This document shows, piece after piece, positions 6,354 to 64,000 of a stretch of 64,000 nucleotides of DNA (positions are counted from its first letter, which is position 1; each line of letters begins with the position of its first letter). The position numbers and the translations under genes were made by a program. The notes below the pieces were generated by a model. That model was given only the letters and a program-made list of their open reading frames with translations, had not been told where the DNA came from and did no database searches. Where the stretch lies: contig NZ_CP132336.1 in assembly GCF_030758315.1 (NCBI RefSeq), positions 3,749,001 to 3,813,000 on the forward strand, given 5' to 3'. Source of the DNA: Pararhizobium sp. IMCC3301 (GTDB lineage: Bacteria > Pseudomonadota > Alphaproteobacteria > Rhizobiales > GCA-2746425).

Positions 6354-6363
6354 GCAGGATCCG

Positions 6364-9514: not shown

Positions 9515-9516
9515 CC

Positions 9517-11038: not shown

Positions 11039-11098
11039 CCTCAAAAAGGATAAACTGTGGATCAGTGCGCTATGTCATGAGCGAAAGAAACAGTTTCC

Positions 11099-12334: not shown

Positions 12335-12801
12335 GATAGATGTTCTCCAGACAAAATTATTGCAATTAGCGATCAATAGGGATTCTCACTTGCAGTTTCG
12401 TTAAAATCCTCATGAAGTCAACGGCAGGTTTTCCACACTTTCCTGGAAAAGAAGCCCATATTTCGGTCTAACTTCCCGCCAGCGAGTCTTCGACGCCGAC
12501 CTGTAAATCCTTCCCTTTCTTGGAAATCTCATATTCGAATTCGTGAATTGTGGCGATAATTTGATGTATTTCAACGAATTAACGTACGAAAGACTCTGTC
12601 CGCCGGGAAAAAGACTCGTTGGATGAGTTGGCACAAATCCAAAATCAGTGCGTCAATTATTTGGCTGTTGCAAAAATGCCGCAATTCATGAAAATTTGCT
12701 TGATGTTCGAGTCCTGGTGGAGATGACGGCAGCCTACAGCACAAAATACTACTCTTACGTGTGGGACTCGAACAATAACCGGTTCCAAACCACAGCGAAA
12801 T
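12335..12801. other. Intergenic region between divergent outer-membrane and TPR-sulfotransferase genes
   Basis: About 470 bp without a convincing gene. It must contain the promoters of both flanking genes, though I could not fix -35/-10 boxes with confidence. It holds a perfect 11-bp inverted repeat, TGTTCGAGTCC at 12704-12714 and GGACTCGAACA at 12764-12774, with 49 bp between the arms, ending 27 bp before the TPR-sulfotransferase start. The short ORFs here lack ribosome binding sites and look random. Confidence 0.5.
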
Positions 12802-14373: not shown

Positions 14374-14385
14374 TTATCAGCCCCC

Positions 14386-14421
14386 GTATCTGACGAGAAG
14401 GCCGTACCTGACAAGAAGGCC
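14386..14421. repeat. Two-copy 18-bp tandem repeat
   Basis: Two adjacent 18-bp units (14386-14403 and 14404-14421), 16 of 18 bases identical and centred on CTGACGAGAAGGCC / CTGACAAGAAGGCC. They sit in the short gap between the convergent sulfotransferase and ispE genes. Function unknown; probably slippage. Confidence 0.6.
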
Positions 14422-14485
14422 GGCGGACTGTTTCAAATCGTATGGTTCGCAGCCGCAGGAGGGCAGGGCACATCAGCAGTGCGTG

Positions 14486-15376
14486 TCAGAGTGTTTCGGT
14501 GGTGACCACCCACCAGTTCGGATGCGCCACTGCAATGGTGTTCGCTGCAGCCGAGGATTGTTCGCCATTTTCAAACAGCCCGAAACACGTCGCGCCGGAG
14601 CCTGACATGCGCGCCAGCAGCGCGCCCGACTTTTCAAGTGCGCCGACCACCTGCAGAATGTCAGGGCAAACTGTGACGGCAGGCTCGAACAGATCGTTGC
14701 GGGTCTCTTTCAACCAGGCAAGCCAGAGCGGCAGACTGGCTTCCTCGGGTAAAGCCGGTAGACCTGCATCGTCAGATTTGTTCAGCGCTGCAAACACATC
14801 CGCTGTCAGGACACCTGTTCCGGGATTGACCAGAACCATTGAAAAAACCGGAATTCGATCCGCTGTGACAGCGGTAACCCGTTCACCAATACCGCTCATG
14901 TGACAGGCCCGTGCACCGACACAGGCGGCGACATCGGCGCCCAAACCTGCACCTATCAGCTCCAGTTCCTGCAGTGTCAGCTCAAGATTCCACAATTGAT
15001 TCAGCGCGCGCAAAGTGGCGGCGGCATCCGCCGAACCGCCTCCGATGCCGGCCGCGACAGGCAGATTTTTCTGCAAGGATATGGCGGCGTTGCCCGGTTC
15101 CTGGCCGCGCAGCGCGGCGCTTTCCTGTAGCGCATAGGCCGCCTTCAAGACAAGGTTGTCGGGCTCACCGGCAATCGCTGCAGCATGCGCGCCGGCAATC
15201 GTCAGTGACGTTGTTCCGGCCTTGCTGACTGTCACGACATCGGCCGCTTTTGCGAAGACCACGAGTGAATCGAGCAGATGCAAGCCATCATCCCGTTTGC
15301 CGGTGACGTGGAGAGCAAGATTGATCTTGGCCCAGGCGTTTTCGCAAACTACGCCGGGATCAAGCATAGGGGACAT
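14486..15376 (-). CDS. ispE: 4-diphosphocytidyl-2-C-methyl-D-erythritol kinase
   Basis: GHMP kinase of the non-mevalonate isoprenoid pathway. Shows AWAKINLALHVTGKRDDG at the N-terminus, the ATP-binding glycine loop LPVAAGIGGGSADAAA near residue 105, and the C-terminal motif ARMSGSGATCFGLF. Length 296 aa is standard. It lies 14 bp after the TPR-LysM gene on the same strand. An isoprenoid-chain synthase gene is nearby, so two steps of isoprenoid supply lie within 4 kb. Confidence 0.95.
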   Translation of the reverse strand: MSPMLDPGVVCENAWAKINLALHVTGKRDDGLHLLDSLVVFAKAADVVTVSKAGTTSLTIAGAHAAAIAGEPDNLVLKAAYALQESAALRGQEPGNAAISLQKNLPVAAGIGGGSADAAATLRALNQLWNLELTLQELELIGAGLGADVAACVGARACHMSGIGERVTAVTADRIPVFSMVLVNPGTGVLTADVFAALNKSDDAGLPALPEEASLPLWLAWLKETRNDLFEPAVTVCPDILQVVGALEKSGALLARMSGSGATCFGLFENGEQSSAAANTIAVAHPNWWVVTTETL

Positions 15377-15390
15377 CAGGGTCCCGGCGC

Positions 15391-17391
15391 CTATTTGCGA
15401 TCTGGAAGGTTCAATTCCGTGCCAGCCACCAAGGGGCCGTTTTCCGGCAACCGATCACGGTTCAAAGCCAGAATGTCGAGGAACGCATCGCCGTCACCCA
15501 GCAAAGCTTTCGCGATATCCCAAAGGCTTTCACCTTCTGCGACAATATGGGTCTGCTGCGCTTTTCCCTCATCATTGGCCAGATCCACCACTGTGTCGCC
15601 TGCATTTGCGGCAACTTTTGTCGGTGCCAGAGGCGGCAGCCCGTTTTCCAGCTTGGCGAGGATTTTTGCCAGTGCGTCCGCGTCTTCCGGTTCCAGATCG
15701 CGGGCATGAGCCCATTGGAACTGAGCCTCCAGAATTCGGCCCGCCCGCCAATAGGCATCACCAAGATGATCGAGAACCAGCGGATCACCGGCCATCTTGT
15801 CGGCGGCTTTCTCCAACTCGGTAACAGCCTCTTCATAACGTCCAAGCTGGTAGTAGGCCCAGCCCAGACTGTCGAGAATGAAACCTTCGTCAGGGCGCTG
15901 TTCAACCGCTTTCTGGATCATCGTCAGCGCTTCATCCAGATTGATCCCCTTGTCGACAAACGAATATCCCAGATAATTCAGCACAAGTGGCTGATCGGGA
16001 AACAGCTCCAGCGCTTTTCTGAAATCAGCCTCTGCAGCGTCCCATCTGTCAGTGCGTTCATAGGTGATGGCGCGGGAATAAAACAACGACCAGTGCCGCT
16101 GCTCCAATTCTTCAACGCCTTCAATTATGATGTCGTAGATTGCATTGGCTTCCTCGAAGCGTTTTTCAAACCGCAGCAGATTGGCCAGCGTAAGATTTGC
16201 AGAAAACGGATCTTCTGCGACGCGCGCCACATTGGTCAGGCGCCTGATCGCCTCATCGACCTGTTCCATGCGAGCCAGATTGCGCGCCGCTTCGACTTTT
16301 GCAGCATAGCTGAAAACCGATTCTTGCGGCAATGCATCAACCAGTTTGACAGCCTCGGCGTATTTTTCATCCTGATTGTAGATATCAACCAGTGCCATGA
16401 TCGCCAGATCCGAGCGCGGATTGAGATACAGCGACAGCTGCAGATAGATTTTCGGCAGCTCGGTGCCGCCATCGCGGCCAAGCGCCGAGCCCAATCCGAA
16501 CAGCACCTCGGCAGCGCCATTTCTGGCCGTCGTCGTCAGATCGACCTGCCTGCCAGCCTCCAGATCGGCTTCCACGCGGTCCATATAGGGATGGCGAGGC
16601 GCTTGTTGTTTGAATGCCCTTATCGCAGCCTGGCCTTTTTCCGGAGCGTTTTTCAACGCCTGCAGGCGGGCAAAACCTTCCACAATACGAAGTGCTGACT
16701 GATCATATTCATAGGCTCTGGCGATGCGCTGAAAGGCCTGCTCACGGTTTCCCAGGTGATCGGCAATCAATCCGCCATGAAATGAGCGGAAACTTTCATA
16801 CCAGTCCGGGCCTTCCAGCATGTCGACGCGCGCCAAAGCGCCAGTCAGATCATCTTTGCCGGCTTCCGCCCAGGCTGCCAGCAGCTGGTTTGTCAGCAGC
16901 TCCAGGGGTGTTTTTCCCGAAGCTTCCTCAAATTCGTCGATCGCTTCACCGTAATTGCCCTGCTTCAGGGCCGAGATGCCGAGGACCGTGCGGGCCAGAT
17001 CATTGGACGAGTCGAATTGCAGAATTTCCGCGGCGTAGGGCAGCGCGCTGTCAACATCACCGTTCATGAGATGCAGGAAAAACGCCTGCTGGATCAGGAC
17101 CGGATTGGTCGGGTCTTTGCCCAGCGCGCGTTCAAAAAACTGCACTGCCGCGAGCGTGTCCTTGTCGTCGGCGGCAATCCGCGCGGCCAGGAAATTACCG
17201 GACAATCCGCGCGCAAAGCGCAGCGATTCGGTATCTTCGCGGGCTGATGAGGGCAGTGAGGGCACGATGATGGCGCCGGCCAGCAGCACCACTGCAGCCA
17301 GGGACCTCATTGTCGCTACGCCGCGGGACTTACGCCCGTTTGCAGAGGTCGAAAAATTTATAGCTGCTGTTTGTGATGCCATTTGTTCCAT
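15391..17391 (-). CDS. Exported TPR-repeat protein with C-terminal LysM domain
   Basis: About 666 residues. An N-terminal extension is followed by a hydrophobic segment (MRSLAAVVLLAGAIIVPSL) that looks like a signal peptide, then many TPR units (clearest: LVLNYLGYSFVDKG, FILDSLGWAYYQLGRYEEA, LVLDHLGDAYWRAGR). The last 50 residues, from HIVAEGESLWDIAKALLGDG to AGTELNLP, fit a LysM peptidoglycan- or glycan-binding domain. TPR proteins in this position beside ispE are common in alphaproteobacteria; the LysM tail is unusual. Start uncertain: ATG at 17391, 17382 or 17310, none with a strong Shine-Dalgarno. Confidence 0.8.
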   Translation of the reverse strand: MEQMASQTAAINFSTSANGRKSRGVATMRSLAAVVLLAGAIIVPSLPSSAREDTESLRFARGLSGNFLAARIAADDKDTLAAVQFFERALGKDPTNPVLIQQAFFLHLMNGDVDSALPYAAEILQFDSSNDLARTVLGISALKQGNYGEAIDEFEEASGKTPLELLTNQLLAAWAEAGKDDLTGALARVDMLEGPDWYESFRSFHGGLIADHLGNREQAFQRIARAYEYDQSALRIVEGFARLQALKNAPEKGQAAIRAFKQQAPRHPYMDRVEADLEAGRQVDLTTTARNGAAEVLFGLGSALGRDGGTELPKIYLQLSLYLNPRSDLAIMALVDIYNQDEKYAEAVKLVDALPQESVFSYAAKVEAARNLARMEQVDEAIRRLTNVARVAEDPFSANLTLANLLRFEKRFEEANAIYDIIIEGVEELEQRHWSLFYSRAITYERTDRWDAAEADFRKALELFPDQPLVLNYLGYSFVDKGINLDEALTMIQKAVEQRPDEGFILDSLGWAYYQLGRYEEAVTELEKAADKMAGDPLVLDHLGDAYWRAGRILEAQFQWAHARDLEPEDADALAKILAKLENGLPPLAPTKVAANAGDTVVDLANDEGKAQQTHIVAEGESLWDIAKALLGDGDAFLDILALNRDRLPENGPLVAGTELNLPDRK

Positions 17392-51280: not shown

Positions 51281-51355
51281 TGGGGCGTAGCCAAGTGGTA
51301 AGGCAACGGCTTTTGATGCCGTGTACCGTAGGTTCGAATCCTACCGCCCCAGCCA
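51281..51355 (+). tRNA. tRNA-Gln (anticodon TTG), CCA encoded
   Basis: A 75-nt cloverleaf. Acceptor arms TGGGGCG and CGCCCCA pair fully, followed by discriminator G and encoded CCA. The anticodon stem ACGGC/GCCGT holds the loop TTTTGAT with anticodon TTG, reading CAA. The T arm has the expected GGTTCGAATCC. It marks the boundary between core genome and the accessory segment: the next gene is a site-specific recombinase. Confidence 0.95.
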
Positions 51356-51575: not shown

Positions 51576-53252
51576 TCAGAGTGCCTTGAACAGTTCCCGC
51601 TGCTCGTTCCACATTGGGGTGAACGCATGGGATTTCAACCATTGGGATGTGAGGCCGACTGGCTGCCCGCCTTGCCAAACATCTCGGATGACGTCGGGAG
51701 CGAGAAACGCCAGTTCAACAAGATGCTGGATCCGCCGTTTCGAGGCACCTTCAGCTTGAGCGATTTCCGTATAAGTTTTGCCGGATCGGATCATTTCGAA
51801 GTATCGATGCGCCAAAGCAATGTTTCTGAACAGCGTGTCATCGCGCGCCCCGATCGCATCGGCCAGGACCAATTTTGTTTCGACACCGCGCTTGCGGTGG
51901 CGGAAGTCAGACTCGAGGCTCAGGTGTTCATCAGTGATGCGCTCCTGCTCGACGTTCAGATATTCGGCGATCGTTTTCGCGGCGATGGTGATCACGAGCT
52001 TTCCCGGCGCGATCTGCACACGTTCGATCAAGCTGAGAAGTGTCCTGTTTGTCTCTTCATCGGTGTTGCTTCCAGCAACGCTCAAACCCGTCATCCGTTG
52101 CGCGATTAATGCGATCTCTTCCGTTGTGGCCGGACTGACAATATCAGTTTGCACAGTCGGAACACCCAGGTGCTTTCTGACAAGAGTAGCAATCAGGGTT
52201 TCAAGTTCTGGTGCGGGCAACCGCCATCCACTGGGGTCTTTCGGGCCAGAGCTGCGGATCAGACGATGAGACACATAGTAGCGCAGCCTACGTCCCTTGC
52301 CGGTCTTGGTATGGCTGGGTGTCAGCCGGTCACCGGTTTCGTCAAACACCTTCCTGGCAAGGAGCGAGACCTGCTTTTTCTGACCATCGCTGTGGCGTCC
52401 TTGTCCCGCGCGCGACCGGATGGCACCGGCCATCAGTTTTTCCTGCAGCGCATCCCAACGAGCAGGCTCAATAAGTGCCGGGTGCTGACCAGGCCAGACC
52501 TTTTCCTTGTGCCTGATACGGCCTGCGTAGATCGGGTTGGTCAAGATGTGATAGATGTGGCCAAAACTGAACTGTGTTCCACCCTTAGGCCGCCCTGACG
52601 ACAATGTACGGATCGCTGTCTTCAACCCTCGCTTGTCAGCCTCGGTTTTGACGATCCGGACATTGCGGTGCCTGTCATAGAGATCATAGATCATACGGAT
52701 CGTCGCAGCATCTGCCTCAGTGATCTTCAGCGTTCGCCCATCGGGTTCATAACCAAGAGGCACATTGCCGCCCATCCACAACCCCTTCCTTTTGGACGCA
52801 GCGATCTTGTCCCGGATACGCTCCGCAGTCACCTCGCGTTCAAACTGGGCAAAGCTCAGCAGCATATTCAGTGTCAGCCGCCCCATGCTGGTGGCGGTGT
52901 TGAACGATTGGGTGACAGACACAAACGACGCACCCGTGTTATCCAGAACATCGACAATCTTGGCAAAATCAGCCAGCGATCGGGTCAGCCGGTCGATCTT
53001 GTAAACCAGGATATGATCGACCGCCCCGCGATCAACGTCGGCCAGAAGCCGCTGCAGACCAGGCCTTTCCAGAGTACCTCCGGAGATGCCGCCGTCATCA
53101 TAGCGATCCGGCACCTGCACCCAGCCTTCGTTCTTCTGGCTGGTGATGTAGGCTGCACAGGCCTCGTGCTGCGCATCCAACGAGTTGAAGTCCTGCTCCA
53201 GACCGTCTTCCGAACTCTTGCGGGTATAGATGGCGCAGCGGATTTTTTTCAT
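51576..53252 (-). CDS. Large serine recombinase
   Basis: 558 residues. Resolvase domain at residues about 5-150 with the nucleophile Ser in YTRKSSED (Ser13) and the conserved DRLTRSLADF; a recombinase domain follows (PLGYEPDGRTLKITEADA... and ILTNPIYAGRIRHK). Zinc-ribbon cysteines typical of phage integrases such as phiC31 are not evident; this is the alphaproteobacterial subgroup associated with DUF2924 and DUF3489. It probably integrates or excises the element. Its start overlaps the DUF2924 stop (ATGA). It reads toward tRNA-Gln, 220 bp away. Confidence 0.92.
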   Translation of the reverse strand: MKKIRCAIYTRKSSEDGLEQDFNSLDAQHEACAAYITSQKNEGWVQVPDRYDDGGISGGTLERPGLQRLLADVDRGAVDHILVYKIDRLTRSLADFAKIVDVLDNTGASFVSVTQSFNTATSMGRLTLNMLLSFAQFEREVTAERIRDKIAASKRKGLWMGGNVPLGYEPDGRTLKITEADAATIRMIYDLYDRHRNVRIVKTEADKRGLKTAIRTLSSGRPKGGTQFSFGHIYHILTNPIYAGRIRHKEKVWPGQHPALIEPARWDALQEKLMAGAIRSRAGQGRHSDGQKKQVSLLARKVFDETGDRLTPSHTKTGKGRRLRYYVSHRLIRSSGPKDPSGWRLPAPELETLIATLVRKHLGVPTVQTDIVSPATTEEIALIAQRMTGLSVAGSNTDEETNRTLLSLIERVQIAPGKLVITIAAKTIAEYLNVEQERITDEHLSLESDFRHRKRGVETKLVLADAIGARDDTLFRNIALAHRYFEMIRSGKTYTEIAQAEGASKRRIQHLVELAFLAPDVIRDVWQGGQPVGLTSQWLKSHAFTPMWNEQRELFKAL

Positions 53253-53686
53253 GCGCCGCTCCCTGTGGCTCTACACAATCCAAAGAAGCGGGGCCCCGAC
53301 CAGCTTGTGCCGGTTATGTGCAGGGCAATGGCTGAGAGCGATTTGAAGCGCTCGCCGTTCAGCACAAAGCCGTTCTCCGTGGCATCAACCTGATACCGGC
53401 GACCGTTCCATTCCCGAACCAGCTGCGTTCCGGAGCGGATCGCCAGAGCCGAGCCACGCACGGACTTACCGCCTGCCGCTGCCTTTAGGGCGCGTTTAAG
53501 GTCCCGGGGCAGCCCTCCGAACCTGCGGCATTGCGCGTCCCAAATCAGCGCCTTGCGCATAAAGATCATCGACAGGAAGTGTGGGGGTACCTCCCCAAAC
53601 CCTTTCGCCCACGCGACGCGCAGAGCGGAGCGGTCCATTACCTCCAGTTCCGCCCACCGTGACGCTATGACAGCGTCGGTTGCCAT
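53249..53686 (-). CDS. DUF2924 protein
   Basis: 145 residues, basic. Holds GLPRDLKRALKAAAGG, LAIRSGTQLVREWNGRRYQVDATENGFVLNGERFKSLSAIALHITGTSWSGPRFFG (cited only as the DUF2924 core: GTxLxREWxGxxxxV then SLSxIAxxITGTxWSGPxFFG). Found almost always between DUF3489 and a serine recombinase in alphaproteobacteria; thought to assist DNA binding but unproven. Overlaps both neighbours (TGATG upstream, ATGA downstream). Confidence 0.9.
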   Translation of the reverse strand: MATDAVIASRWAELEVMDRSALRVAWAKGFGEVPPHFLSMIFMRKALIWDAQCRRFGGLPRDLKRALKAAAGGKSVRGSALAIRSGTQLVREWNGRRYQVDATENGFVLNGERFKSLSAIALHITGTSWSGPRFFGLCRATGSGA

Positions 53687-53988
53687 CAGGCAGTTTCCGC
53701 ACCGGTCAGCCCGACTATCTGGTATCGCGAGGGCTTTCCATTGTCAGGCTTGACCGAAGTAATCTCATGGCCCGCCTTGCGGAGGCCTGTCAGGGCTGCC
53801 CGAGTTGTATGTGGTAACCAGCCGAGAGTATTGCTGAGGCTTGGCACATCAGCTCCGCCCTTCTGGCTTAGAAGGGCGATCAGCCTTGCCTTCTTTGTGA
53901 CCTTTGCAATTGTAGAAACCTGTTTTGGCGCTCGTGCCGTAGCAGATTTTCTTGCACTCTCTCGTTTTGGATTTATCGTTTTGGTCAT
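53686..53988 (-). CDS. DUF3489 protein
   Basis: 100 residues. A Lys/Arg/Thr-rich N-terminus is followed by a winged-helix-like domain: KARLIALLSQKGGADVPSLSNTLGWLPHTTRAALTGLRKAGHEI. The HTH suggests DNA binding, possibly control of the recombinase. GGAGAA lies about five bases before ATG 53988. First gene of the three-gene recombination module. Confidence 0.88.
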   Translation of the reverse strand: MTKTINPKRESARKSATARAPKQVSTIAKVTKKARLIALLSQKGGADVPSLSNTLGWLPHTTRAALTGLRKAGHEITSVKPDNGKPSRYQIVGLTGAETA

Positions 53989-54504
53989 GATGTTCTCCTT
54001 CTTCATCAGATTGGGCCAACAAGGTCCCGGTACTGACGAGAGCCCGGAGTGCCGGGCGGAGAAGGCGGCACCTTGCTGCAGGGTGCGTCGGTCCGGACAG
54101 TACCGCTCTGTTCGGCAAGCAAGTCCAGTCGTATCTGCCATGAAACCCACAGGAGTTTTCTATGAACTGCAGGCTCATCAATCAATGTACCGATCGTTGG
54201 TATCCGATGCACACAGCCACACCATACCTCAAATTCAGACGTTGAGAGTTTGCGTTGTAATAGTTCCGTGTTTTAGGGGGCTTGTCGTTTTGTTGTGGGC
54301 GATTGTTCTCAGAGGGCTCCAAAAACGAACAGACGACAACCACCACCGACTGTTAGCACGCCCTTCGTCTGTTTCTAATTCCAAACCACAAGCAAGATTC
54401 ACAAGTTTAATTTTACCGTCCACCCATCCATTAATGCGCGCGGTGCGTTCGCCCTGGGGAAAATATTTGAAATGACGATAAATGGGTGCAGTGGCCTCGT
54501 TGAT
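53989..54504. other. Intergenic region upstream of the recombinase operon
   Basis: About 515 bp, noticeably A/T-richer in its right half than the core genome. It must hold the promoter of the DUF3489-DUF2924-recombinase operon and may hold an attachment site or control region. I found no convincing gene, tRNA fragment or long repeat in it. Confidence 0.45.
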
Positions 54505-54752: not shown

Positions 54753-55550
54753 CTAGAATTTCTTAGCCAAGGCAACCACCCTTACTGGGCTTGTGTATCC
54801 TTCCGCGTGATTGTCGGACAAATAAGGGACGATGGCGCGACGTTCGCGAAGAATCCGCTGGCCGTGGCCATCCAAACCAAAATCCATGATCACACCCTCG
54901 GACAGGACACCCTCTCTGGCCTCGATGAGAATGTTCTCGCAGTCGTTCCACTCGCTATCCTTTTCGTTCCCGACATACCGCATACGGCCAGCAAATAACG
55001 ATGCTGAAGTGATCCGCGAGAGAATAAAGTCGCCAAAGCGATTTTTAGAATGATCAAATGCCCGCACGTGATACCGCCCCACAACGTCGACGAGTGTGTG
55101 GGGCGAGATACTGCGCTCGCGGCGCTCTGACCGGGACGAATAATCGATATGCACGATCCGCTGCGACGTAATTGCTCCGATGATCGTGCGCAGGATCGCG
55201 GGTTCGGGGTTGACGCGTAAAGCTGATTTCGGCTTCTCGAAGCAACGCCCCATCGCGTCCTCGAGCCAGCGATCCAGACCCGGCGTATCGAACACGTGGC
55301 GCTTGGGAATGTCAGCATTTTCACTCACCAAAAGTCGGCCACCTTTGAATGAGCCGGTTTGCGTCCTCCGGAACACCTCCTGCCCGCAAGCCGCCTCGAA
55401 AGCCTCTGCGAAGCGCAATTGATGCCGGGACATCGATGCTTCAGATACGCCAAAGATGCGCATGTACGCAGACTTTTCATAAGCTGCAAATGCACCGGCA
55501 TAGCGGATAGCAGCTTCGATCCAACCAAACCTGACTTCATTGATACTCAT
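54753..55550 (-). CDS. WYL-domain transcriptional regulator (BrxR/CapW-like)
   Basis: 265 residues. N-terminal winged-HTH-like segment (about 1-70: AAYEKSAYMRIFGVSEASMSRHQLRFAEAF), a central WYL domain (about 125-195, with RIVHIDYSSRSERRERSISPHTL and GRYHVRAFDHSKNRFGDFILSRI) and a C-terminal extension. WYL proteins with this layout (BrxR, CapW) are repressors of BREX, CBASS and other defence systems. Here it diverges from a type I-F cas operon with 136 bp between, so it is the prime candidate for its regulator. The direct repeats in the gap are the candidate operator. Control of cas genes is inference. Confidence 0.82.
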   Translation of the reverse strand: MSINEVRFGWIEAAIRYAGAFAAYEKSAYMRIFGVSEASMSRHQLRFAEAFEAACGQEVFRRTQTGSFKGGRLLVSENADIPKRHVFDTPGLDRWLEDAMGRCFEKPKSALRVNPEPAILRTIIGAITSQRIVHIDYSSRSERRERSISPHTLVDVVGRYHVRAFDHSKNRFGDFILSRITSASLFAGRMRYVGNEKDSEWNDCENILIEAREGVLSEGVIMDFGLDGHGQRILRERRAIVPYLSDNHAEGYTSPVRVVALAKKF

Positions 55551-55663: not shown

Positions 55664-55686
55664 GCTGAAATCAAGTGGAGACTACG

Positions 55687-56823
55687 GTGACAGAAGACGT
55701 TGAAGAGGGTAGCGAAGCCAAAAAGAACGACGTTCTGACCTTCAAGGTGCCAGGTCGAATTCTTGATTTGAGCGGATTGGAAGCAGAGTTCAGGGCCATT
55801 TCTGCTGCCTGTGGCAAGGTGCTAACGGCGGAGATCGCCGCGCGCGTCTGCACCAAGAGCGGTACACATTTGATCAAATTGGTCAGTCCTAGAACCGACG
55901 GTGATCACGCTGTGTTGCGGGTCGATGCCGAGGGCGAAAATGCCAAACAACAGCTCCTTCCATCAGTGAATGCGCCAGACATTCCCTTTGCGAAGATCCT
56001 GTTTCGCCCTCTTGAGGTCACCGGGTATCCGACGAAGTCCGTCATTCAACATGTGATGTATTCGGACGACATTTCGGAGATTGTTCTAAGGGCATTCACT
56101 TCGGTCTTCGGCGCAGATGTCCTGAAGTCGATCAGATCGGTCATTCTCGGACCGCCACCAGAGATCCTTAAGCTTTCACACGGAGAGTTTCCGATCATTT
56201 TCATTCCCTCCCCCGACGGAGGTGACTTGCAGATTACACCGGTTTCTCCGGCCGCGGCCTTCATGGACATCAAGGAGGTTTCCGGTCTCTATTTTCAGAA
56301 GCAGGTCAAGGACGCCCCTCGCGTGCCGCGTGGGCGCTGGCACAAGCAGGCCGTGAGTTCAAAGCCGCAAAACATCTCCGGCGCCATTGGTGGCCAACGT
56401 TTCCGCTTCTTGGCAGAGATGCCGCGGGGACTCGCGCAGTATGATGCGGAACTTTACCGTTACGTGAATGGTGGCAGCTTCCCGAGATGGCGCGACCCGG
56501 ATGTCGCGGTCTGGGTGATGCGATATGCAGACCTCATCGACAGGGATAAGGAATACAACAACCAGGATACGCGCGCCGGCTTGGACCGCCTTGCCGATCG
56601 TCTGATCAATGACGCGCTGGCCTTCACTGAAGAAATCGTCCGCGAGGCCGCCTCAATGGCGAATGCTCATGATATTGCGGTCGAAAGCCTTGAGAAATCA
56701 CCACGCCCCGCAACCGTTCTTCTGCGCCGCTCGTGGCAAAAGGACGGATTTGACAGGGCCCGGCTAGTTCTTGGCGGTGCTCACTTCGACTATCGCGAAA
56801 AACAGATCCGGAAGGATGTCTGA
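55687..56823 (+). CDS. cas8f: Divergent Cas8f (Csy1), large subunit of the type I-F Cascade
   Basis: Recognises the PAM and 5' handle in type I-F complexes. 378 residues, clearly shorter than the usual about 430. The best match to Csy1 is SKPQNIS near residue 223, followed by GGQRFRFLAEMPR (compare KPQNISQLN...LLPSLPP in classical Csy1). Near the N-terminus GTHLIKLVSPRTDGDHAVLRV weakly matches the classical THSLKPIHPDARGSNLY. The rest is strongly diverged. GTG at 55687 has GTGGAG six bases upstream; the earlier GTG 55675 has none. Identity rests on motif plus position ahead of cas5f. Confidence 0.78.
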   Translation: MTEDVEEGSEAKKNDVLTFKVPGRILDLSGLEAEFRAISAACGKVLTAEIAARVCTKSGTHLIKLVSPRTDGDHAVLRVDAEGENAKQQLLPSVNAPDIPFAKILFRPLEVTGYPTKSVIQHVMYSDDISEIVLRAFTSVFGADVLKSIRSVILGPPPEILKLSHGEFPIIFIPSPDGGDLQITPVSPAAAFMDIKEVSGLYFQKQVKDAPRVPRGRWHKQAVSSKPQNISGAIGGQRFRFLAEMPRGLAQYDAELYRYVNGGSFPRWRDPDVAVWVMRYADLIDRDKEYNNQDTRAGLDRLADRLINDALAFTEEIVREAASMANAHDIAVESLEKSPRPATVLLRRSWQKDGFDRARLVLGGAHFDYREKQIRKDV

Positions 56824-56826
56824 ATC

Positions 56827-57660
56827 ATGCTGTTTGCCTTGAAGAACTTGCGCGCCAGCCGCGTGAACCTCCTGATGAACGACTTTGCAGCGGGTCTGCC
56901 AAGCCCGCTTTCGTTTCTGGGCTTTGGCGATACAATTGTACGTCGGTTGGGTTTGACGCCTTGGAGTGCCAGGACCCTTCCGATTCTTCATCGTGTCGAC
57001 GCCACAGATGGCCGGACCAAGCCAGAGATGGAGAACAAGACGAACATCTTCTCGCCTATCGAGACGATGGAAGATCTCACAGGCACCGTCGATGTTTCGC
57101 TGCTGCTCGAAATCCCCTATCTTGATAGCGAGGCCGCGCTGCGTGAGGTCGTGCCTCAGTTACGTATCGCCGGCGGCATTATTCAGAACGACGATTACAC
57201 CGTAGAGCGTGTGACCCCGGATGGCTCTGCGTTCAGCAATATGCGCCGCGGCTATGCGATGATTCGACCTGAACAAGATGACCGTCGCCTTATCTGCAGC
57301 GGGGACAAGGACGGTCTCACCTCAATTGCTGCTACTCTTTTCCCGACTGTAAGAGCCCCAGGTTCTGGATGGATTGTGCCAGTCTCGGTTGGATACCACC
57401 TGATCGAAGACCCTAAAACGGCACCGAAACGGATCCGCACGCGAAGCCGGGACGTCCCGCATGTCTTCGCGGAGCCGGTCCTGGGCATCGCCGAGATGGT
57501 CTCGGTCCGCAATCAACGACTGACTAACCTGACAGAAGAAGAATTTTCAGCGCTGCTTTGGTCCTGGGAGGCGCGAGGCAAACATGTCCTTGGGCATCCT
57601 GATTATCATGCGAAAAACTCCGAAAACCGCAACATCGAGAAAGTTGAAAATCATGGCTAA
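56827..57660 (+). CDS. cas5f: Cas5f (Csy2)
   Basis: Caps the 5' end of the crRNA in the I-F Cascade. 277 residues, shorter than the typical about 320. LPSPLSFLGFGDTIVRRLG near residue 24 matches the Csy2 'P(S/T)..F.GF.HA' element; MRRGYAMIRPEQDDRRLICS corresponds to the conserved GFALV strand. It starts three bases after the cas8f stop and overlaps cas7f by eight bases, so translation is coupled. Confidence 0.82.
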   Translation: MLFALKNLRASRVNLLMNDFAAGLPSPLSFLGFGDTIVRRLGLTPWSARTLPILHRVDATDGRTKPEMENKTNIFSPIETMEDLTGTVDVSLLLEIPYLDSEAALREVVPQLRIAGGIIQNDDYTVERVTPDGSAFSNMRRGYAMIRPEQDDRRLICSGDKDGLTSIAATLFPTVRAPGSGWIVPVSVGYHLIEDPKTAPKRIRTRSRDVPHVFAEPVLGIAEMVSVRNQRLTNLTEEEFSALLWSWEARGKHVLGHPDYHAKNSENRNIEKVENHG

Positions 57661-58732
57661 GCCAACAACATCCAATATTTCATTTGAAACTGGCATGCTG
57701 GCTTACGCCCGCTCCATCCAGATCACCGAAGGTTTGTTCTTCGGCACCCGCAGCGAGAATGGCGAGACAGTACGTACGCCGATCGAGATTTTGGAAAAGG
57801 GCGTTCGCGGTCAGTCTTCGGAAGACAAGGCCAAGAACCCTGGATTGAGCAACCCGCAATCTGTCGAGTTCGCAGTGGTCCCCATGGGGTGCGACGGTGT
57901 CGAGCTCGCGTTCGTCATGCGTGTGATGCCCCTTGCGATGAAGCCGCACGCTTGTGGTAACACTGAGGTTGGTGAAACATATCGGCGCTTTGCTGAAAGC
58001 TACCGTGCGGCCGATGGGTTCCGTGTTCTGGCCGAACTCTACATCTGGAACATCGCGAATGCCCGTTTCGCCTGGCGCAACAGATTCCAGTCGGACGATA
58101 TGAGCGTGACGATCAGCTTCGAGGGCCGGAAAATCACGTTCGATCCGTTCCGGTTGCGCTTCGACGCACCTGCGGGTTCAGGCGATCTGGCGCAGGCAAT
58201 GACCGCAGGAACCGCGGAAGATCTCGACGCGCTGGTATCTGGTGTGACACGCGGGCTATCGGAGAACGCATTCAGTGCCGGAGTGGTATGGTCGGCCCGT
58301 ATGCAACCCGGTCAAGAAGTCTTTCCATCTCAGGATTACGTTCGCGAAGAGAAGGTTGACAAGAACTTGAGCCGCGTCCTCGCGAAATTGCCGACGTTTT
58401 ACGCTGGTCGTGAAATCAAGCAGGCCTCAATGCACTCGCAGAAGATTGGCGCGGCGTTGCGCCATATCGACGTCTGGCACGGCAGCGACGAATGCGCCGC
58501 GATTGCGGTCAACCCTTATGGCGGCGTCCAGGAGACGGGCGCGGTGCTGCGCAATCCGAAGACGAAGAATAGCTTCTATGACATCCGCAGCAAAGCAACA
58601 GATCTGCTGGAAGGGGTCAGCGCGGCTACGAATGCGTCGGAGATTAGCAGTGAGGCCCACTTTGTAATGGCGAACCTCGTCCGCGGTGGCGTTTTTGGCT
58701 CCAGCTCCAAAAAGGCCGAGGTCAACGGATGA
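57653..58732 (+). CDS. cas7f: Cas7f (Csy3), backbone of the I-F Cascade
   Basis: Forms the helical crRNA-binding backbone. 359 residues from ATG 57653 (MAKPTT), overlapping the cas5f stop by eight bases; the ORF is open to 57584 but that part reads within cas5f. Strong Csy3 signatures: NARFAWRNR, GQEVFPSQDY, MHSQKIGAALRHIDVW, NPYGGVQETGAVLRNPKTK, FVMANLVRGGVFG. These match canonical I-F1 Csy3 (not the I-F2 or the Tn7-linked type) closely. Confidence 0.95.
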   Translation: MAKPTTSNISFETGMLAYARSIQITEGLFFGTRSENGETVRTPIEILEKGVRGQSSEDKAKNPGLSNPQSVEFAVVPMGCDGVELAFVMRVMPLAMKPHACGNTEVGETYRRFAESYRAADGFRVLAELYIWNIANARFAWRNRFQSDDMSVTISFEGRKITFDPFRLRFDAPAGSGDLAQAMTAGTAEDLDALVSGVTRGLSENAFSAGVVWSARMQPGQEVFPSQDYVREEKVDKNLSRVLAKLPTFYAGREIKQASMHSQKIGAALRHIDVWHGSDECAAIAVNPYGGVQETGAVLRNPKTKNSFYDIRSKATDLLEGVSAATNASEISSEAHFVMANLVRGGVFGSSSKKAEVNG

Positions 58733-59382
58733 GTGTAGATCTTAATATTGGAACGGGGCAGTGCCAAGGCACTACTCGCCTTCTCATAAAGCCGGTCGAG
58801 GCAGTGATCGAGCTTGGCGCATCTGTGGATGTCATGACAAAGGCGCTCGGCGCCGTGCATCATGCCAACAGGCACGCAGCCATCGACGATTTCATTGCGG
58901 TTGCCCTGCCCGGCATGCGGAAGGGGCGCAATTGCATGTTACCAGGCCATGAGATCGAATTGATCGGCTCGGAGGTGTCATTGATGAACCTGTTGGCCCT
59001 TGATGGCATCTCTTCGCTCAAAAAACGCGGCATGTTGACTGAAACGGAGATCTTCGAATGCTACAGTGACGCCGGCGAAACCGGCGCTGCCTATGTGCGT
59101 GATAACACATGCGCAAAGCATACTGCAGGATGGGTCAGACGGAGCATTGAGCGTGCCGAACGGCGAGGAAAACCTGTTGGTCAGCCCGTGAAGGTACGCG
59201 ACAACGATCTCTCCGCCCTGAAACTCCAAATTGGAAGTGGGATCATTCATGTGCGGGAAGTGCTCGGCGTCATCGGGGAAGGGCCAATCATGGTCAGTAC
59301 CTACGGCTTTTCTTCTCCAAACTCACTCGCCATCCTTCCTGTCATGCCCGACTCAGCGGGCGTAGTCATCAATGCAACTTAA
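58729..59382 (+). CDS. cas6f: Cas6f (Csy4) crRNA-processing endoribonuclease
   Basis: Cuts the repeat RNA 3' of its stem-loop and stays bound. 217 residues. The N-terminal helix holds His44 in AVHHANRHAA, in the position of the catalytic His29 of P. aeruginosa Csy4; the arginine-rich RNA-binding helix is GWVRRSIERAERRG; the C-terminal strand region STYGFSSPNSLAILP corresponds to the FTCYGLSKGGFVPWF end. Diverged but recognisable. Overlaps cas7f by ATGA and cas1 by 11 bases. Confidence 0.82.
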   Translation: MSVDLNIGTGQCQGTTRLLIKPVEAVIELGASVDVMTKALGAVHHANRHAAIDDFIAVALPGMRKGRNCMLPGHEIELIGSEVSLMNLLALDGISSLKKRGMLTETEIFECYSDAGETGAAYVRDNTCAKHTAGWVRRSIERAERRGKPVGQPVKVRDNDLSALKLQIGSGIIHVREVLGVIGEGPIMVSTYGFSSPNSLAILPVMPDSAGVVINAT

Positions 59383-60355
59383 AGGCGGTCCCCGTCTTCT
59401 GGTGACTGATCGTGAAGGCGCGCTCTATCTCGAGCGCGCCCGAATTCACGTCGAGGGTAACCGGATCGTTTATCACATTGCAGATGATGAAAATCGGCGC
59501 GAATACAACATTCCTCACGTAAACCTCGCGGTACTTTTTATCGGGCAAGGCACATCTATAACGCAGGATGCGATGCGCCTGCTCGGAGAAGAGGGCGTGC
59601 ATCTTGCAGTCACTGGCACTGGCGGCACACCGTTACATATGGGAGGCTTGACACACTACAGCTCTACCCGGCATTTCAGGGAATTGCTGCCTGTGTACCT
59701 TAATCCTCAAATGTCCCTACAGGCTGCCATAGCAGCCATGCACGACAGATCCGCCAGGATGAAGAAGATCGGTGGCGCAGGTGCGCAGAGGTACCTGAAG
59801 CAGCGCGATACGGCGCATATTTCGAAGATTTGCGCCCGCTTTGAAGGAAGTCTGAAAGACTGTCGGGATACACAGCAGCTGCTTGGCTTCGAGGGCAACT
59901 TCTCCAAGGCCTGCTATGCTGAATTCGCAAGAATGTCCGGGGTGACAGGAGCGACGCCTTTCAGACGTGAAGCTGGCGAAGGGTCCAAAGCAAAAAAATC
60001 TGACATATCTGATCCAATAAAACAGATCAATCGCCTGATCGATCATGGCAATTACCTTTGCTATGGCATGGCCGGTGCGGCACTCTGGGCCCTTGGCATC
60101 CCGCCCCACATGTCGCTTTTCCATGGGAAGACCCGTGCCGGCGGCCTCGTTTTTGATCTGGCGGATTCATTCAAGGACGCGTTGGTTCTACCATTGGCTT
60201 TTAGTGCCGCGAGATTGAAGGACGAAAATCCAGAGAAGACATTTCGCGCCAGGTTGATCAGCACTTTTGATGACAGGGCCATCCTTTCCGAGGCAATCGG
60301 GACGGTGGAGCGGATGCTGGCGGCGGGGTCCGCCGGAGTAAAAGCTGATGCGTGA
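59372..60355 (+). CDS. cas1: Cas1 integrase (type I-F)
   Basis: Inserts new spacers as a Cas1-Cas2/3 complex. 327 residues. Catalytic residues line up as Glu174 in LLGFEGNFSKACYAEF, His251 in LFHGKTRAGGLVFDLADSFKD, and Asp262/265. Also typical: GEEGVHLAVTGTGG and YGMAGAALWALGIPPHM. The gene is downstream of the effector genes, while in classical I-F loci it is first. It overlaps cas2/3 by eight bases. Confidence 0.95.
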   Translation: MQLKGGPRLLVTDREGALYLERARIHVEGNRIVYHIADDENRREYNIPHVNLAVLFIGQGTSITQDAMRLLGEEGVHLAVTGTGGTPLHMGGLTHYSSTRHFRELLPVYLNPQMSLQAAIAAMHDRSARMKKIGGAGAQRYLKQRDTAHISKICARFEGSLKDCRDTQQLLGFEGNFSKACYAEFARMSGVTGATPFRREAGEGSKAKKSDISDPIKQINRLIDHGNYLCYGMAGAALWALGIPPHMSLFHGKTRAGGLVFDLADSFKDALVLPLAFSAARLKDENPEKTFRARLISTFDDRAILSEAIGTVERMLAAGSAGVKADA

Positions 60356-63300
60356 AGTCATTGTTGTCTGCAGGTCAGGAAAGAAGTCCCGCGTCAGAAC
60401 TGCTCAGGTGCTTGATCGCTACTTTTGGCGTATCGGAGATCGAACGTGGCGCGGAAAAGCGACAAATGCCTGCCTCGACAGAGTTGCCAGAGAGCTTCGT
60501 CATCGCGCGACGCGCAACACGGCCGTTGCGATTCATGAAATCAGGAGCACTCACGAAAGCCGTATGCCACTGATCCGCATCGGTTCGAAAACAGCGTTTT
60601 CCGAAGATGGATTGACACCGGTCTCATCACACCCCGCTGCGGCTGCGCGCGCACAGAGCGCGAATTCTGCCCTATCAAGTGCTGGCGCTGCGGTCAAAAT
60701 TGCTACCCTTTTTCACGATTTGGGAAAAGCGACCAAGCTCTTCCAAAAAAAGTTAAGCCGTGCGTTGAATGGTGAGGTGCCCGAAGCCGACGCAATCCGT
60801 CATGAACTGCACTCGGCTGTCGTTTGGGACACACTCTTTGGGTCGGCAAGTGATAACGACCTGATCGCCGCGCTGACGACCGTAGGGCCAGTGGCGATAG
60901 ATGACGCTTGTTCTCACGCTGTCGACGGTCTCTTCCGCATGCATTGCCATCCAAATTCAAAGATGGACCTCGCTTTCTTGCAGCGCTCCGGAACACTGTC
61001 GCACCTCATCGGAATGCTCGTCCTGACACACCACCGGCTCCCCACAGGCGACAGCAACTATGTGGACATGTTGCCTGTCCGGCACATCAACGAAAAGATA
61101 GATTTCGATAGGGCCGATCTTGCGGTAGCGTCAGGTACCCCGTTCTGGCATGAGGGATGGTGGCTGAAGCGCTTGCAGCGTGACGCTGCACTTTTGCGCC
61201 CGGATCAGCATGTATCCAGCGTTGACATAGCGCTGCGCGCATCTCTCATGTTTGCGGATCACCTGGGGTCTGCAGCCAGTCGTGTTTCAGACGTAAAACC
61301 GGACCACCTCGCAAACACCCGCGCCGATCCTTCAGGCGGCAGTCGATCGGTTGCGGCCGATAGTCTTTCCAAACACGTTCAGCGCGTCTACGCGCGGACG
61401 GGCAGCTCGTTTGACATGCTGCATCGATACAGGAACCGCTTCCCTGCTCTCTCGGAAAACGACATACCTCTCGATGTGATGCTTCCTTCGACTTCATGCG
61501 ATGCGAGGTTTGCCTGGCAGGCGGCGGCGGCGGATGCCGCAAAAGAGATGTGTGCCAGAAACGAAGGTGGTTTTTTTGCTTGCCTGATGTCCGGAACCGG
61601 AACGGGGAAGACGCGCGGCGCACCCACTATTCTCGCAAACGCGGCAATGGTAGATACGCGCCCGGAGCGGAGATATCTGCGGATGAACCTGGCGCTGGGG
61701 TTGCGGGTTCTCGCAACGCAATCCGCGCGTGAATATGTCGATGACCTGGGGTTTAGAGATGAAGACGTGTCTGTGCTTGTTGGGCAGGAACCCCTCGCAT
61801 TTGACCCTGATACCTCCGAAAGCACAACCGGTTCGGAGAGTCTGATCACGATCCCCGACTGGCTGCATGTCGAGAAGGTAAGCGGAGCGATCCCGCAAGA
61901 GGGAGATGAGAAGGAAGCGGACTGGCTTCGCTCGCTTTCCCTCGACACCGACAGTGTCCTTCCTGCATTTTGCGATTTGGTCCTAGAAGCGGCCGGAAAG
62001 AACGGTGCGAAGGGAAGGCGGCTGATTGCCCCTCCCATTATGGTGGGCACGATCGACCACTTGATGGGTGTCGCATCGCCGGTAAATTCCAGATTCCTGA
62101 TTCAATCCATCAGGACTTTGACGTCTGACCTCATTCTTGACGAGATCGACCAATTCGATGGCGAGGATATCGCGGCCATCGGGCGTTTGGTCTTTCAGGC
62201 CGGTGCCGCCGGGCGCAGGGTTATCATCATGTCAGCAACCTTGACGGATGATATCGCCCATTCACTACACGCGTCGTATAGCCTCGGCTGGTCAGATTTT
62301 GCGCGCTCGGAGGGCATTTCGGAACATGTAAACCTTCTCTGCACCGGAGATGCGCTGGGCTCGTGTTTCACAAATGAAAATGGTGCCAGCCTGCAGGATG
62401 TGGTGGCTCAAAGCCAGCGCGTTATCATAGAAAACCTTGAGTCCTGCCATCCGTTGCGCCGCGGTGAGATCCTTCCGGCCTGTGATGCCTGGGAAGATCT
62501 TGTTATGCAAGTCGATGTGGGCTGCTCCCGAATGCATGACGCCCATGCTGTCGAAATCGAAGACTTCCGCGTCTCTGTCGGCCTGGTCAGACTCACTCGG
62601 ATTTCGCACACCTCCGCCATGGCCGCACAGTTGGCTTCCGGCAGTGTCCGGGGTCGGCTTCGTGTCATCCTATGTCTTCACTCGAACTTCCCGCTTCTTC
62701 ACAGATCCTGGATCGAGACGCGTCTAAAGCGGGCACTGACCCGCAAAGGCACAGATCCCGAGGGTGGCGTGAGGGATCTATGCAGATCTGAAGGCCTTTT
62801 CGCGCGCGCCTCCGCGATTTCAGCCAATGACATCGAAATTATCGTGGTTACATCACCAGTCATTGAGACCGGAAACGACTTCGACTTTGACTATGCGATC
62901 CTCGACCCGATCTCTATGCGGTCCATCGTGCAGTCAGCTGGACGCGTATGCCGTCACCGGGCGCAGTCGGGCATGCTCCCCAATGTTCTCATTTTGGGGC
63001 GTAGTCCTGTTGCGATGCAGGGCGGCAAGCTTGCAAGGCCGGGCGTCGAGACGAAGCCTGCGGGCGATACCGGGGTGGGATGGAGATCGCTTGAACAGTT
63101 CGAGGGGCGTCACCTAACGGATCTCGCAGGGACGGAACGTTTTGCGGCAATTGACGCGCGTCCGATCATCTCGGAAGAACACGATATCCCACTGCGGACC
63201 GAGGAGAGGGCGCTGCGTGGTGCCATGATTGACGTCCGCGAAGGAGCCGCTCTCGGAAAATATATCAGGAAGCTCAATAGTCGTCTAAATTTAAGAATGA

Positions 63301-63719
63301 CGGTCACTCGAAAATTCCGTCGCTCCAATCTATCCGAGGTTGTCTACTTTCTGGACGGCGAAAATCTTTCAGATGCGGAGTGGTATATCGATCTAGCACC
63401 GGGCAGGCGTGAAAGATCAATCGCGGTCGCGAGCCAGAGAGGACTCGAGGTCTCAAATGTCGTTGGGTCTCGTCTCTTCATCGACCTGACGTGTTCCGCC
63501 TGGCTCGACTACAATCAAGGCCGCTCAGACATGACATCTGCCGATCTGCGCTCTTTGATGACTACGCGGGTCACTGATTATGGCAATGATGTTGACCTGC
63601 CGATGGTCTATACTGAGTTTACGGGGTTCACTCGGGGCAAGTCAGATGATCTTTTTTCCCCTTTTGGACAATCCGTTGTTAATAAAGACTTATTAACGCT
63701 CTTTGAAAATTTAGCCTAA
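60348..63719 (+). CDS. cas3f: Cas2-Cas3 fusion nuclease-helicase (type I-F)
   Basis: Adaptation and interference protein specific to type I-F. 1123 residues. Residues about 1-90 are Cas2: VLDRYFWRIGDRTWRGKAT and TRNTAVAIHEIRS, matching I-F Cas2. HD nuclease: LFHDLGKATKLFQKKL near 120-135 (His123-Asp124). Helicase: P-loop SGTGTGKTRG near 417; LILDEIDQFDGEDI near 597 (the I-F DExD variant); MSATLTDDI; VIETGNDFDFDYAI and QSAGRVCRHR near 863. Slightly longer than the classical protein. ATG 60348 lies inside the end of cas1. Confidence 0.95.
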   Translation: MREVIVVCRSGKKSRVRTAQVLDRYFWRIGDRTWRGKATNACLDRVARELRHRATRNTAVAIHEIRSTHESRMPLIRIGSKTAFSEDGLTPVSSHPAAAARAQSANSALSSAGAAVKIATLFHDLGKATKLFQKKLSRALNGEVPEADAIRHELHSAVVWDTLFGSASDNDLIAALTTVGPVAIDDACSHAVDGLFRMHCHPNSKMDLAFLQRSGTLSHLIGMLVLTHHRLPTGDSNYVDMLPVRHINEKIDFDRADLAVASGTPFWHEGWWLKRLQRDAALLRPDQHVSSVDIALRASLMFADHLGSAASRVSDVKPDHLANTRADPSGGSRSVAADSLSKHVQRVYARTGSSFDMLHRYRNRFPALSENDIPLDVMLPSTSCDARFAWQAAAADAAKEMCARNEGGFFACLMSGTGTGKTRGAPTILANAAMVDTRPERRYLRMNLALGLRVLATQSAREYVDDLGFRDEDVSVLVGQEPLAFDPDTSESTTGSESLITIPDWLHVEKVSGAIPQEGDEKEADWLRSLSLDTDSVLPAFCDLVLEAAGKNGAKGRRLIAPPIMVGTIDHLMGVASPVNSRFLIQSIRTLTSDLILDEIDQFDGEDIAAIGRLVFQAGAAGRRVIIMSATLTDDIAHSLHASYSLGWSDFARSEGISEHVNLLCTGDALGSCFTNENGASLQDVVAQSQRVIIENLESCHPLRRGEILPACDAWEDLVMQVDVGCSRMHDAHAVEIEDFRVSVGLVRLTRISHTSAMAAQLASGSVRGRLRVILCLHSNFPLLHRSWIETRLKRALTRKGTDPEGGVRDLCRSEGLFARASAISANDIEIIVVTSPVIETGNDFDFDYAILDPISMRSIVQSAGRVCRHRAQSGMLPNVLILGRSPVAMQGGKLARPGVETKPAGDTGVGWRSLEQFEGRHLTDLAGTERFAAIDARPIISEEHDIPLRTEERALRGAMIDVREGAALGKYIRKLNSRLNLRMTVTRKFRRSNLSEVVYFLDGENLSDAEWYIDLAPGRRERSIAVASQRGLEVSNVVGSRLFIDLTCSAWLDYNQGRSDMTSADLRSLMTTRVTDYGNDVDLPMVYTEFTGFTRGKSDDLFSPFGQSVVNKDLLTLFENLA

Positions 63720-63775
63720 ATGAAGTTTGGCACCTAAATTGCTGATATTTCTTTTCTTTTAGTGGAAAAGGACCA
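63720..63775 (+). promoter_or_regulatory. Presumed CRISPR leader
   Basis: The 56 bp between the cas2/3 stop and the first repeat are rich in pyrimidines and A/T (GATATTTCTTTTCTTTTAGTG). It is a very short leader, so either the array promoter lies within cas2/3 or the array is read through from the operon. No IHF site could be identified with confidence. Confidence 0.45.
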
Positions 63776-64000
63776 GCTCCCTGCCGGATAGGCAGCTGAG
63801 AGGTCATACGCGCAGTTGACAAAATCAAGACCCTCGCTCCCTGCCGGATAGGCAGCTGAGAGGTTATCTTCATACTCTTTCGCCCATTCCCACAAGCTCC
63901 CTGCCGGATAGGCAGCTGAGAGAACCACCACTCTGCATTGTTTACGTGCCTATCAGCTCCCTGCCGGATAGGCAGCTGAGAGAATACGACGAAGAGATGT
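63776..64000 (+). CRISPR. Type I-F CRISPR array, cut off by window edge
   Basis: Four repeats with 28-bp units start at 63776, 63836, 63896 and 63956, an exact 60-bp period with 32-bp spacers (three complete, the fourth partial). The repeat is 5'-GCTCCCTGCC then GGATA then GGCAGCTGAGAG plus a last base that is G, G, A, A in turn. Its stem CTGCC/GGCAG and 28/32 geometry are those of type I-F repeats (classical GTTCACTGCCGTATAGGCAGCTAAGAAA, cited in two parts: GTTCACTGCC / GTATAGGCAGC...). The plus strand is the crRNA sense, so the leader side is on the left. The array continues beyond 64000. Confidence 0.97.

Follow-up and report, generated by a model that had tools for sequence, protein, structure and literature searches.

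Among the type I-F systems of clustered regularly interspaced short palindromic repeats (CRISPR) and associated cas genes, I-F1 loci carry cas1 and cas2/3 ahead of csy1-4 in the textbook order, and the canonical I-F protospacer-adjacent motif (PAM) is 5'-CC. Type I-F2 lacks Cas8f and encodes Cas5fv and Cas7fv, while type I-F3 is marked by a Cas8-Cas5 fusion, TniQ and Tns proteins and the absence of Cas1 and Cas2/3. In type I-F4, as outlined in the 2025 classification, an HNH nuclease is fused to Cas8f and Cas3 is typically absent (PMC12669027). Here, we describe a CRISPR-Cas locus at the end of a 64,000-nucleotide stretch of the genome of Pararhizobium sp. IMCC3301 (GCF_030758315.1, contig NZ_CP132336.1, positions 3,749,001 to 3,813,000 of the forward strand), called the window below. 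Six plus-strand genes form the operon cas8f-cas5f-cas7f-cas6f-cas1-cas2/3 (55675-63719), which is followed by a CRISPR array. Judged from its sequence, the locus is very probably a complete adaptive immune system of type I-F, belonging to a separate I-F lineage that is mainly alphaproteobacterial and scattered in distribution. The separate lineage is indicated by a single clade in three trees and the same gene order in all 12 uncut relatives, and an ordinary working I-F system is indicated by intact catalytic motifs, 57 identical repeats out of 61, the conserved K and N of the PAM loop and candidate protospacers preceded by CC.

The locus resembles I-F1 in its six proteins, the Cas2-Cas3 fusion, the 28-nt palindromic repeat, the 32-nt spacers, the KPQN loop of Cas8f and the probable 5'-CC PAM. 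It differs in the reversed order of the gene modules, the separate clade, a shorter Cas8f and Cas5f and a longer Cas6f, and its Cas8f and Cas6f are overlooked by most family models. Unlike I-F2, the window encodes Cas8f, together with a Cas7f above the Csy3 cut-offs. Unlike I-F3, Cas8f and Cas5f are separate subunits and Cas1 and Cas2/3 are present, and no Tns family was found among the 10 flanking proteins scanned. The I-F4 features are also lacking, as Cas8f has 382 aa and matches no Pfam family, and Cas2/3 is present. The preliminary description had already set the locus apart from I-F2 and I-F3, in agreement with these results.

Gene order in the window and its relatives

The operon starts with the large-subunit gene cas8f (55675..56823, GTG start), a member of a short divergent family recognized by the PADLOC model PDLC01145 (446 bits) and by profile alignment with hhalign. 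After a 3-base gap comes cas5f (56827..57660, 277 aa), which reached 55 bits on PF09614 (cut-off 25) and 73 bits on the PADLOC Cas5f model, with 22.8 bits on TIGR02565, under the cut-off of 154. The remaining four junctions overlap by 8, 4, 11 and 8 bases and lead to the backbone subunit gene cas7f (57653..58732, 359 aa; PF09615 220 bits, cut-off 25; TIGR02566 204 bits, also above its cut-off), a divergent cas6f predicted to encode the CRISPR RNA (crRNA) endonuclease (58729..59382, 217 aa; assigned from PF09618 matches in the clade, hhalign and motifs), cas1 (59372..60355, 327 aa; TIGR03637 208 bits, cut-off 150) and the fusion gene cas2/3 (60348..63719, 1123 aa; PF21384 and PF22590). The start of cas7f at 57653 was chosen by alignment to two plasmid-borne relatives, which gave no support to a longer open reading frame (ORF) from 57584. 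The Cas2 domain of Cas2/3 scored 53 bits on PF21384 (cut-off 27), and the full-length protein 394 bits on TIGR02562, under the cut-off of 566. Its HD, Walker A, DExD and helicase motifs are retained (FHDLGKA, GTGTGKT, LDEID and SATL), and its C-terminus extends beyond those of the two aligned plasmid relatives. These results bear out the earlier view of a complete type I-F locus in one coupled operon of overlapping or touching genes, with Cas7f, Cas1 and Cas2/3 clearly of I-F type; the start given there, 55687, sits 12 bases inside cas8f.

Thirteen relatives of the locus were found, of which 12, spread over several families and genera, are alphaproteobacterial by record. Two of the relatives, on Pararhizobium gei p3 and on a Neokomagataea tanensis plasmid, came from searching plasmids with Cas8f. 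The other 11 came from scanning 84,980 species genomes, not exhaustively, with a pair of short Cas8f peptides: Cypionkella, Roseivivax, Albidovulum, one alphaproteobacterium, Gemmobacter, Neokomagataea thailandica, two Aestuariivita, Thioclava, Marivita and L006. The last is a 4.9-kb contig truncated within cas5f in a metagenome-assembled genome labelled 'WS1', an assignment that we guess to be misbinning. All 12 uncut relatives, and thus 13 of 13 loci with the window, showed the window order on a single strand with the array after cas2/3. PDLC01145 matched 1 of 385 genomes of the class and 2 of 297 of the order, the window's own included in each, and the second order-level match was a 47-residue fragment with two stops. 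None of the four other same-genus genomes gave a match (1 of 5 with the window's own), and viral contigs scanned with the clade's Cas8f, Cas7f and Cas1 yielded no relative.

The gene order was then compared across the phylum. Cas1f scored above the cut-off in 37 of 398 sampled genomes, the window's own among them, and the other 36 loci were classed by inspection of their gene order: 20 had cas1-cas2/3 first, 2 were effector-first, 6 were taken as I-F2 and 8, including L061 and L079, were cut or broken. The cas1-first order thus accounted for 20 of the 22 loci with readable order. Loci were taken as I-F2 when their Cas3 was short and scored low and the profiles used detected neither Cas7f nor Cas5f. 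One locus with I-F1 proteins (L068, genome G706, 5852-15827) has the effector genes, then the array, then cas1-cas2/3, its Cas8f being assigned by position. As L068 falls inside I-F1, effectors in front are not diagnostic alone. Another locus, L080 in genome G484 (C346, 30-13969), has the full window order with an array of 96 repeats of a different sequence. In genome G448, of the same lineage, the parts lie on two contigs. G484 and G448 belong to another class of the same phylum, which we guess to be Magnetococcia. Their Cas1 proteins scored 298 and 309 bits on TIGR03637 compared with 208 in the window, and the G484 Cas8f weakly matches other PADLOC models and has NPQN in place of KPQN.

Among plasmids, 36 records matched Cas7f, two of them from the clade, and 13 of the other 34 were examined. 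Six had cas1 first (L083, L084, L085, L086, L091 and L107), three were I-F3 (L088, L089 and L106) and three had no cas1 in the examined stretch (L090, L092 and L108). In L087 (Allochromatium tepidum pAt1, 4697-16459), cas2/3 lies on the opposite strand, followed by the effector genes, cas1 and a 53-repeat array. The L087 Cas8f matches PADLOC PDLC01425 in its N-terminal part only, and the locus is a divergent I-F. L092 (Pseudomonas amygdali pMPPla107, 7585-15236) is very divergent, with weak matches for Cas8f and Cas5f, then Cas7f, Cas6f and a large cas2/3-like gene.

Phylogenetic position of the clade

In the trees of Cas1, Cas7f and Cas2/3, V denotes the clade (13 rows including the window) and M denotes L079 and L080 or L110. 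The full Cas1 tree had 66 rows and was rooted on 13 rows taken as I-E, namely E. coli K-12 and 12 putative I-E rows that matched the Cas1f model weakly. V was supported at 100/95, and I-F1 and I-F2 formed one clade at 98/98 with V and M outside, while the branch joining M to I-F1 and I-F2 was weak (89/40). With long rows removed (62 rows), the reduced Cas1 tree gave 100/100 for V, 97/90 for I-F1 plus I-F2 and 95/77 for V plus M. Approximately unbiased (AU) tests on this tree retained both alternatives, an outside position of M alone at p 0.195 and of V alone at p 0.181. In the Cas7f tree (48 rows, including I-F1 and I-F3, with no I-F2 and no independent root), V again reached 100/100. The full Cas2/3 tree (61 rows, quick method) supported V at 100, with I-F2 branching first and V standing with M and L092 at 94. 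The reduced Cas2/3 tree, rooted on I-E (47 rows, after removal of I-F2, the aberrant rows and four of the nine outgroup rows), placed I-F1 in one clade at 99 with V outside and M between at 72; three of its five outgroup rows were under half filled.

Both reduced trees were built after the first trees had been inspected. The rows omitted were the partial L077, L081 and L082 from the full Cas1 tree, and these with L087, L078, L104 and L101 from the reduced one; L109 from the Cas7f tree; L052 and L075 from the full Cas2/3 tree; and the I-F2 rows, L087, L092, L108, L052, L075, L078, L094, L095, L101 and L103 from the reduced one. The label I-F2 for L061 in the Cas1 trees is a guess, its contig ending just past cas1.

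V was separate in all five trees, apart from the I-F1, I-F2 and I-F3 rows wherever these were present. The proposal of a distinct lineage, which called for these trees and the order survey, was therefore supported by a separate clade with one order in every uncut locus. In these alignments the separate clade is firm, and its deep position outside I-F1 is likely. Within the clade, P. gei and Neokomagataea were placed among rhodobacterial loci in the Cas1 and Cas7f trees, which suggests transfer.

The strongest alternative is that V is an I-F1 group that evolved fast after a move into alphaproteobacteria, its deep position being a long-branch artefact and its genes having been rearranged late, at the base of the clade. 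The tree program warned of long branches meeting in all five trees, the full Cas2/3 tree left V, M and two I-F1 groups unresolved, the AU tests rejected no other placement of V and M, and carriage on plasmids and on a probable island implies transfer. On the other hand, I-F1 and I-F2 formed one Cas1 clade against V, M and I-E, also without the long rows, I-F1 was one clade in the reduced Cas2/3 tree, and a second lineage of the same order, that of G484, also lies outside I-F1. We consider this alternative unlikely, though it deserves the most weight among the rivals.

The effector-first order bears on the history of the subtype. Two lineages outside I-F1 share this order, and in type I-E of E. 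coli K-12 the adaptation genes likewise stand at the operon end (casABCDE-cas1-cas2), although the I-E effector proteins are different and cas3 is separate and first. The simplest reading of this pattern is that effector-first is older and that the common ancestor of I-F1 and I-F2 acquired the cas1-first order. We tentatively propose, at slightly less than even chances, that effector-first was the original I-F order, with cas1-cas2/3 beside the array as in I-E, that the clade and the G484 lineage are its survivors, and that a later shift of the adaptation pair to the operon start gave the order of I-F1 and I-F2. Two independent rearrangements could also have produced the shared order; L068 is a case of changed order inside I-F1. 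The order had been called rearranged in the preliminary description; it is indeed opposite to that of I-F1, but the textbook order may itself be the derived one, since the G484 lineage, also outside I-F1, is effector-first as well.

Effector subunits, array and candidate targets

Cas8f and Cas5f had been described as shorter than usual, and they proved so against seven annotated I-F loci: across the 13 clade loci Cas8f, counted from the first start codon, has 379-398 aa versus 401-444 aa, and Cas5f of the window 277 aa versus 292-354 aa. Cas6f of the window, with its 217 aa, exceeds the 177-212 aa of six annotated loci. The window Cas8f matched nothing in Pfam and NCBIfam. PDLC01145 matched all 12 clade Cas8f scanned, two of which also weakly matched a canonical model (best E 0.0068). 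For the two canonical Cas8f scanned, the PADLOC matches were to different models. With hhalign, whose E-values here are pairwise and not database values, 12 clade Cas8f aligned to seven Cas8f annotated as Csy1 with a probability of 90.7 (E 1.3e-6), and SKPQNIS was paired with TKPQNIS. The KPQN loop occupies residues 230-233 of the window Cas8f; all 12 clade Cas8f compared have its K and N, and 9 of them keep the full motif. In Pseudomonas aeruginosa Cas8f, according to PMC9001735, K247 and N250 lie in the PAM-recognition loop and K247E or N250D abolishes DNA binding. From their spacing, these residues would be the K and N of KPQN.

The window Cas6f gave nothing above noise in three libraries (Pfam, NCBIfam and PADLOC). 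In the clade, 5 of 11 members matched Pfam Cas_Csy4 (PF09618, best E 2.5e-5), 1 of 11 matched NCBI Csy4 TIGR02563 at E 0.12 only, and hhalign of the 11 against nine canonical Cas6f gave a probability of 94 (E 1.3e-7). HH at positions 44-45 and the C-terminal YG(F/L)S are invariant in all 11. The predicted Cas6f/Csy4 identity is supported for the clade as a whole by PF09618 and hhalign, the window copy having no family match above noise of its own. No link was found when clade Cas6f and Cas8f were aligned with single G484 sequences by hhalign.

The array starts at 63776, 56 nt past the cas2/3 stop. The window holds the first 4 of its 61 repeats (63776..64000, plus strand), and it runs on for 3.4 kb to window-equivalent position 67404. 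The 28-nt repeats and 32-nt spacers lie on a single strand with a spacing of 60, and a pattern search of the whole genome for the repeat core with at most one mismatch found 61 places, all in this array. The consensus is matched exactly by 57 repeats. Of the other four, repeats 1 and 2 deviate at their final base, an inner repeat at 3 bases and the last repeat at one. The two leader-proximal repeats (L001, the window's locus, 12777-12864) end in G and the others in A, as if a variant had been copied at acquisition. Spacers 12 and 13 are identical; spacers 36 and 44 have 4 mismatches over 32 positions and could derive from related phages. In the 12 uncut relatives the first repeat lies 86-124 nt past the cas2/3 stop, and their repeats have 28 nt (26 in L009 by the extension rule used) and end in GGCTGAGAGA. 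The leader (63698..63775, plus strand) was delimited by alignment of 13 leaders, which share, about 75-80 nt ahead of the first repeat, a recurring block close to GCTCTTTGAAAATATGGT. This block matches at 15 or more of 18 positions in 10 of the 13 leaders (L015 with one inserted base), at 12 in L004 and poorly in L009 and L016. In the window it covers 63698-63714, within the last codons of cas2/3.

Candidate protospacers were found by comparing the 60 window spacers with 61 genomes, its own included, where the 19 best foreign loci gave three matches with at most 6 mismatches, and by comparing the arrays of the window, L004, L008, L015 and L016 with phages. Spacer 7 of P. gei (L004) matched Rhizobium phage RHph_X2_25 within a methyltransferase gene, with 30 of 32 positions identical and CC in front. 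Window spacers 19 and 27 each matched at 27 of 32 positions, in G792 and G794, also with CC in front; both target ORFs read as terminase large subunits, by eye from the ORFs with no family search. CC thus preceded three of four candidates, which fits the canonical I-F PAM and makes 5'-CC the probable PAM of the system. Against 50,697 phage records the window array gave two matches, both at the chance level of E 4; the L008 and L015 arrays gave one chance-level match each and the L016 array none. Among plasmids, the window array had no matches other than the arrays of P. gei p3 and the N. tanensis plasmid.

If the proteins assemble and act as in I-F1, the array would be transcribed with or behind the cas genes, and Cas6f would cut the 28-nt repeats and stay bound in the complex. 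Together with Cas8f, Cas5f and a backbone of Cas7f, this Cas6f would form a Csy-type complex, in which the KPQN loop of Cas8f would read the 5'-CC PAM, and Cas2/3 would then be recruited and degrade the target. Cas1 and Cas2/3 would insert spacers at the leader end, directly after and partly overlapping cas2/3.

Several observations weigh against a complete I-F system of separate lineage. The P. gei Cas6 matched only the type IV Cas6 model in PADLOC (21 bits), although the one canonical Cas6f scanned also matched this model (38 bits). The AlphaFold models were poor, with a predicted local distance difference test (pLDDT) score of 53.5 for Cas6f and 67.0 for Cas8f, and Foldseek gave nothing with an E-value of 0.001 or lower for the two proteins. 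Its top matches were I-F3 Cascade chains, 9gs9_H for Cas6f (E 1.3e-3) and 9gs9_A for Cas8f (E 0.2); in the Cas6f ranking, Csy4 came at rank 10, but rank 4 was held by an unrelated aminohydrolase, and shell proteins followed closely. Searched by sequence against solved structures, Cas6f matched an I-F3 Cas6 at E 0.1, and Cas8f gave nothing beyond a designed protein at E 0.18. The Foldseek matches agree with the proposed identities and are no proof of them. Moreover, the full Cas2/3 tree did not resolve V, M, L087 and the two I-F1 groups and did not place V outside I-F1. Window spacer 23 matched an ABC-transporter-like ORF of G745 at 27 of 32 positions without CC, and the one strong protospacer belongs to the relative P. 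gei.

A decaying or silent copy would fit the IS110-like transposase fragment behind the last repeat, at the far end of the array, and the chance-level phage matches, but the frames are open throughout, the repeats are nearly uniform and two terminase-like targets carry CC, and we regard decay as improbable. An ordinary I-F1 locus reshuffled locally in this genome, for which L068 would be a precedent, is hardly credible, as the order recurs in every uncut relative, across several families and genera, and these loci group with the window in one clade.

Genomic setting and significance

Upstream of the operon and divergent from it lies a gene for a WYL-domain regulator (54753..55550, minus strand; PF13280, 43.7 bits). 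WYL homologues occupy the same divergent position in 6 of 13 relatives (L004, L006, L007, L014, L015 and L016), and this protein may regulate the operon. Farther upstream, a tRNA-Gln gene (51281..51355, plus strand; ARAGORN) is a possible island anchor, and genes for a serine recombinase, DUF2924 and DUF3489 proteins fill 51576..54150 on the minus strand (Pfam). Two same-genus genomes, G746 and G744, are collinear with the window through this stretch up to about 54178 and 54133, respectively, and not beyond. A 165-bp copy (86%) of the stretch adjoining tRNA-Gln lies 98 kb downstream (C1:3898405-3898569), perhaps the far end of an island, and the operon is probably island cargo. Rfam gave no match in the stretch covering the locus (L001:4600-16700).

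An alphaproteobacterial or effector-first I-F lineage was not described in the titles and abstract openings of the literature matches listed. The 2025 classification treats I-F3, I-F4 and an I-F variant that is seemingly intermediate between I-F1 and I-F2, and its main text contains neither 'alphaproteobacteria' nor 'gene order', while its figures and data files could still include such a locus (PMC12669027). The parts seen of a plasmid survey (PMC9071438) and of a Bombella study (PMC12282179) did not describe the lineage either. PADLOC had catalogued the same Cas8f family as PDLC01145 by 2023, in an entry that is silent on order, clade and host.

The Cas6f of both plasmid relatives is annotated as hypothetical, and their Cas8f as hypothetical or 'Sec7 domain-containing'. 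Since Cas8f and Cas6f escape the NCBI models and mostly those of Pfam, loci of this kind are probably undercounted. The divergent subunits with their kept PAM-loop residues may offer a natural means of testing on which I-F surfaces anti-CRISPRs depend. The clade extends one of the best-studied CRISPR subtypes by a branch and offers a clue to the original I-F gene order; if the ancestral-order reading were true, it would merit its own variant number.

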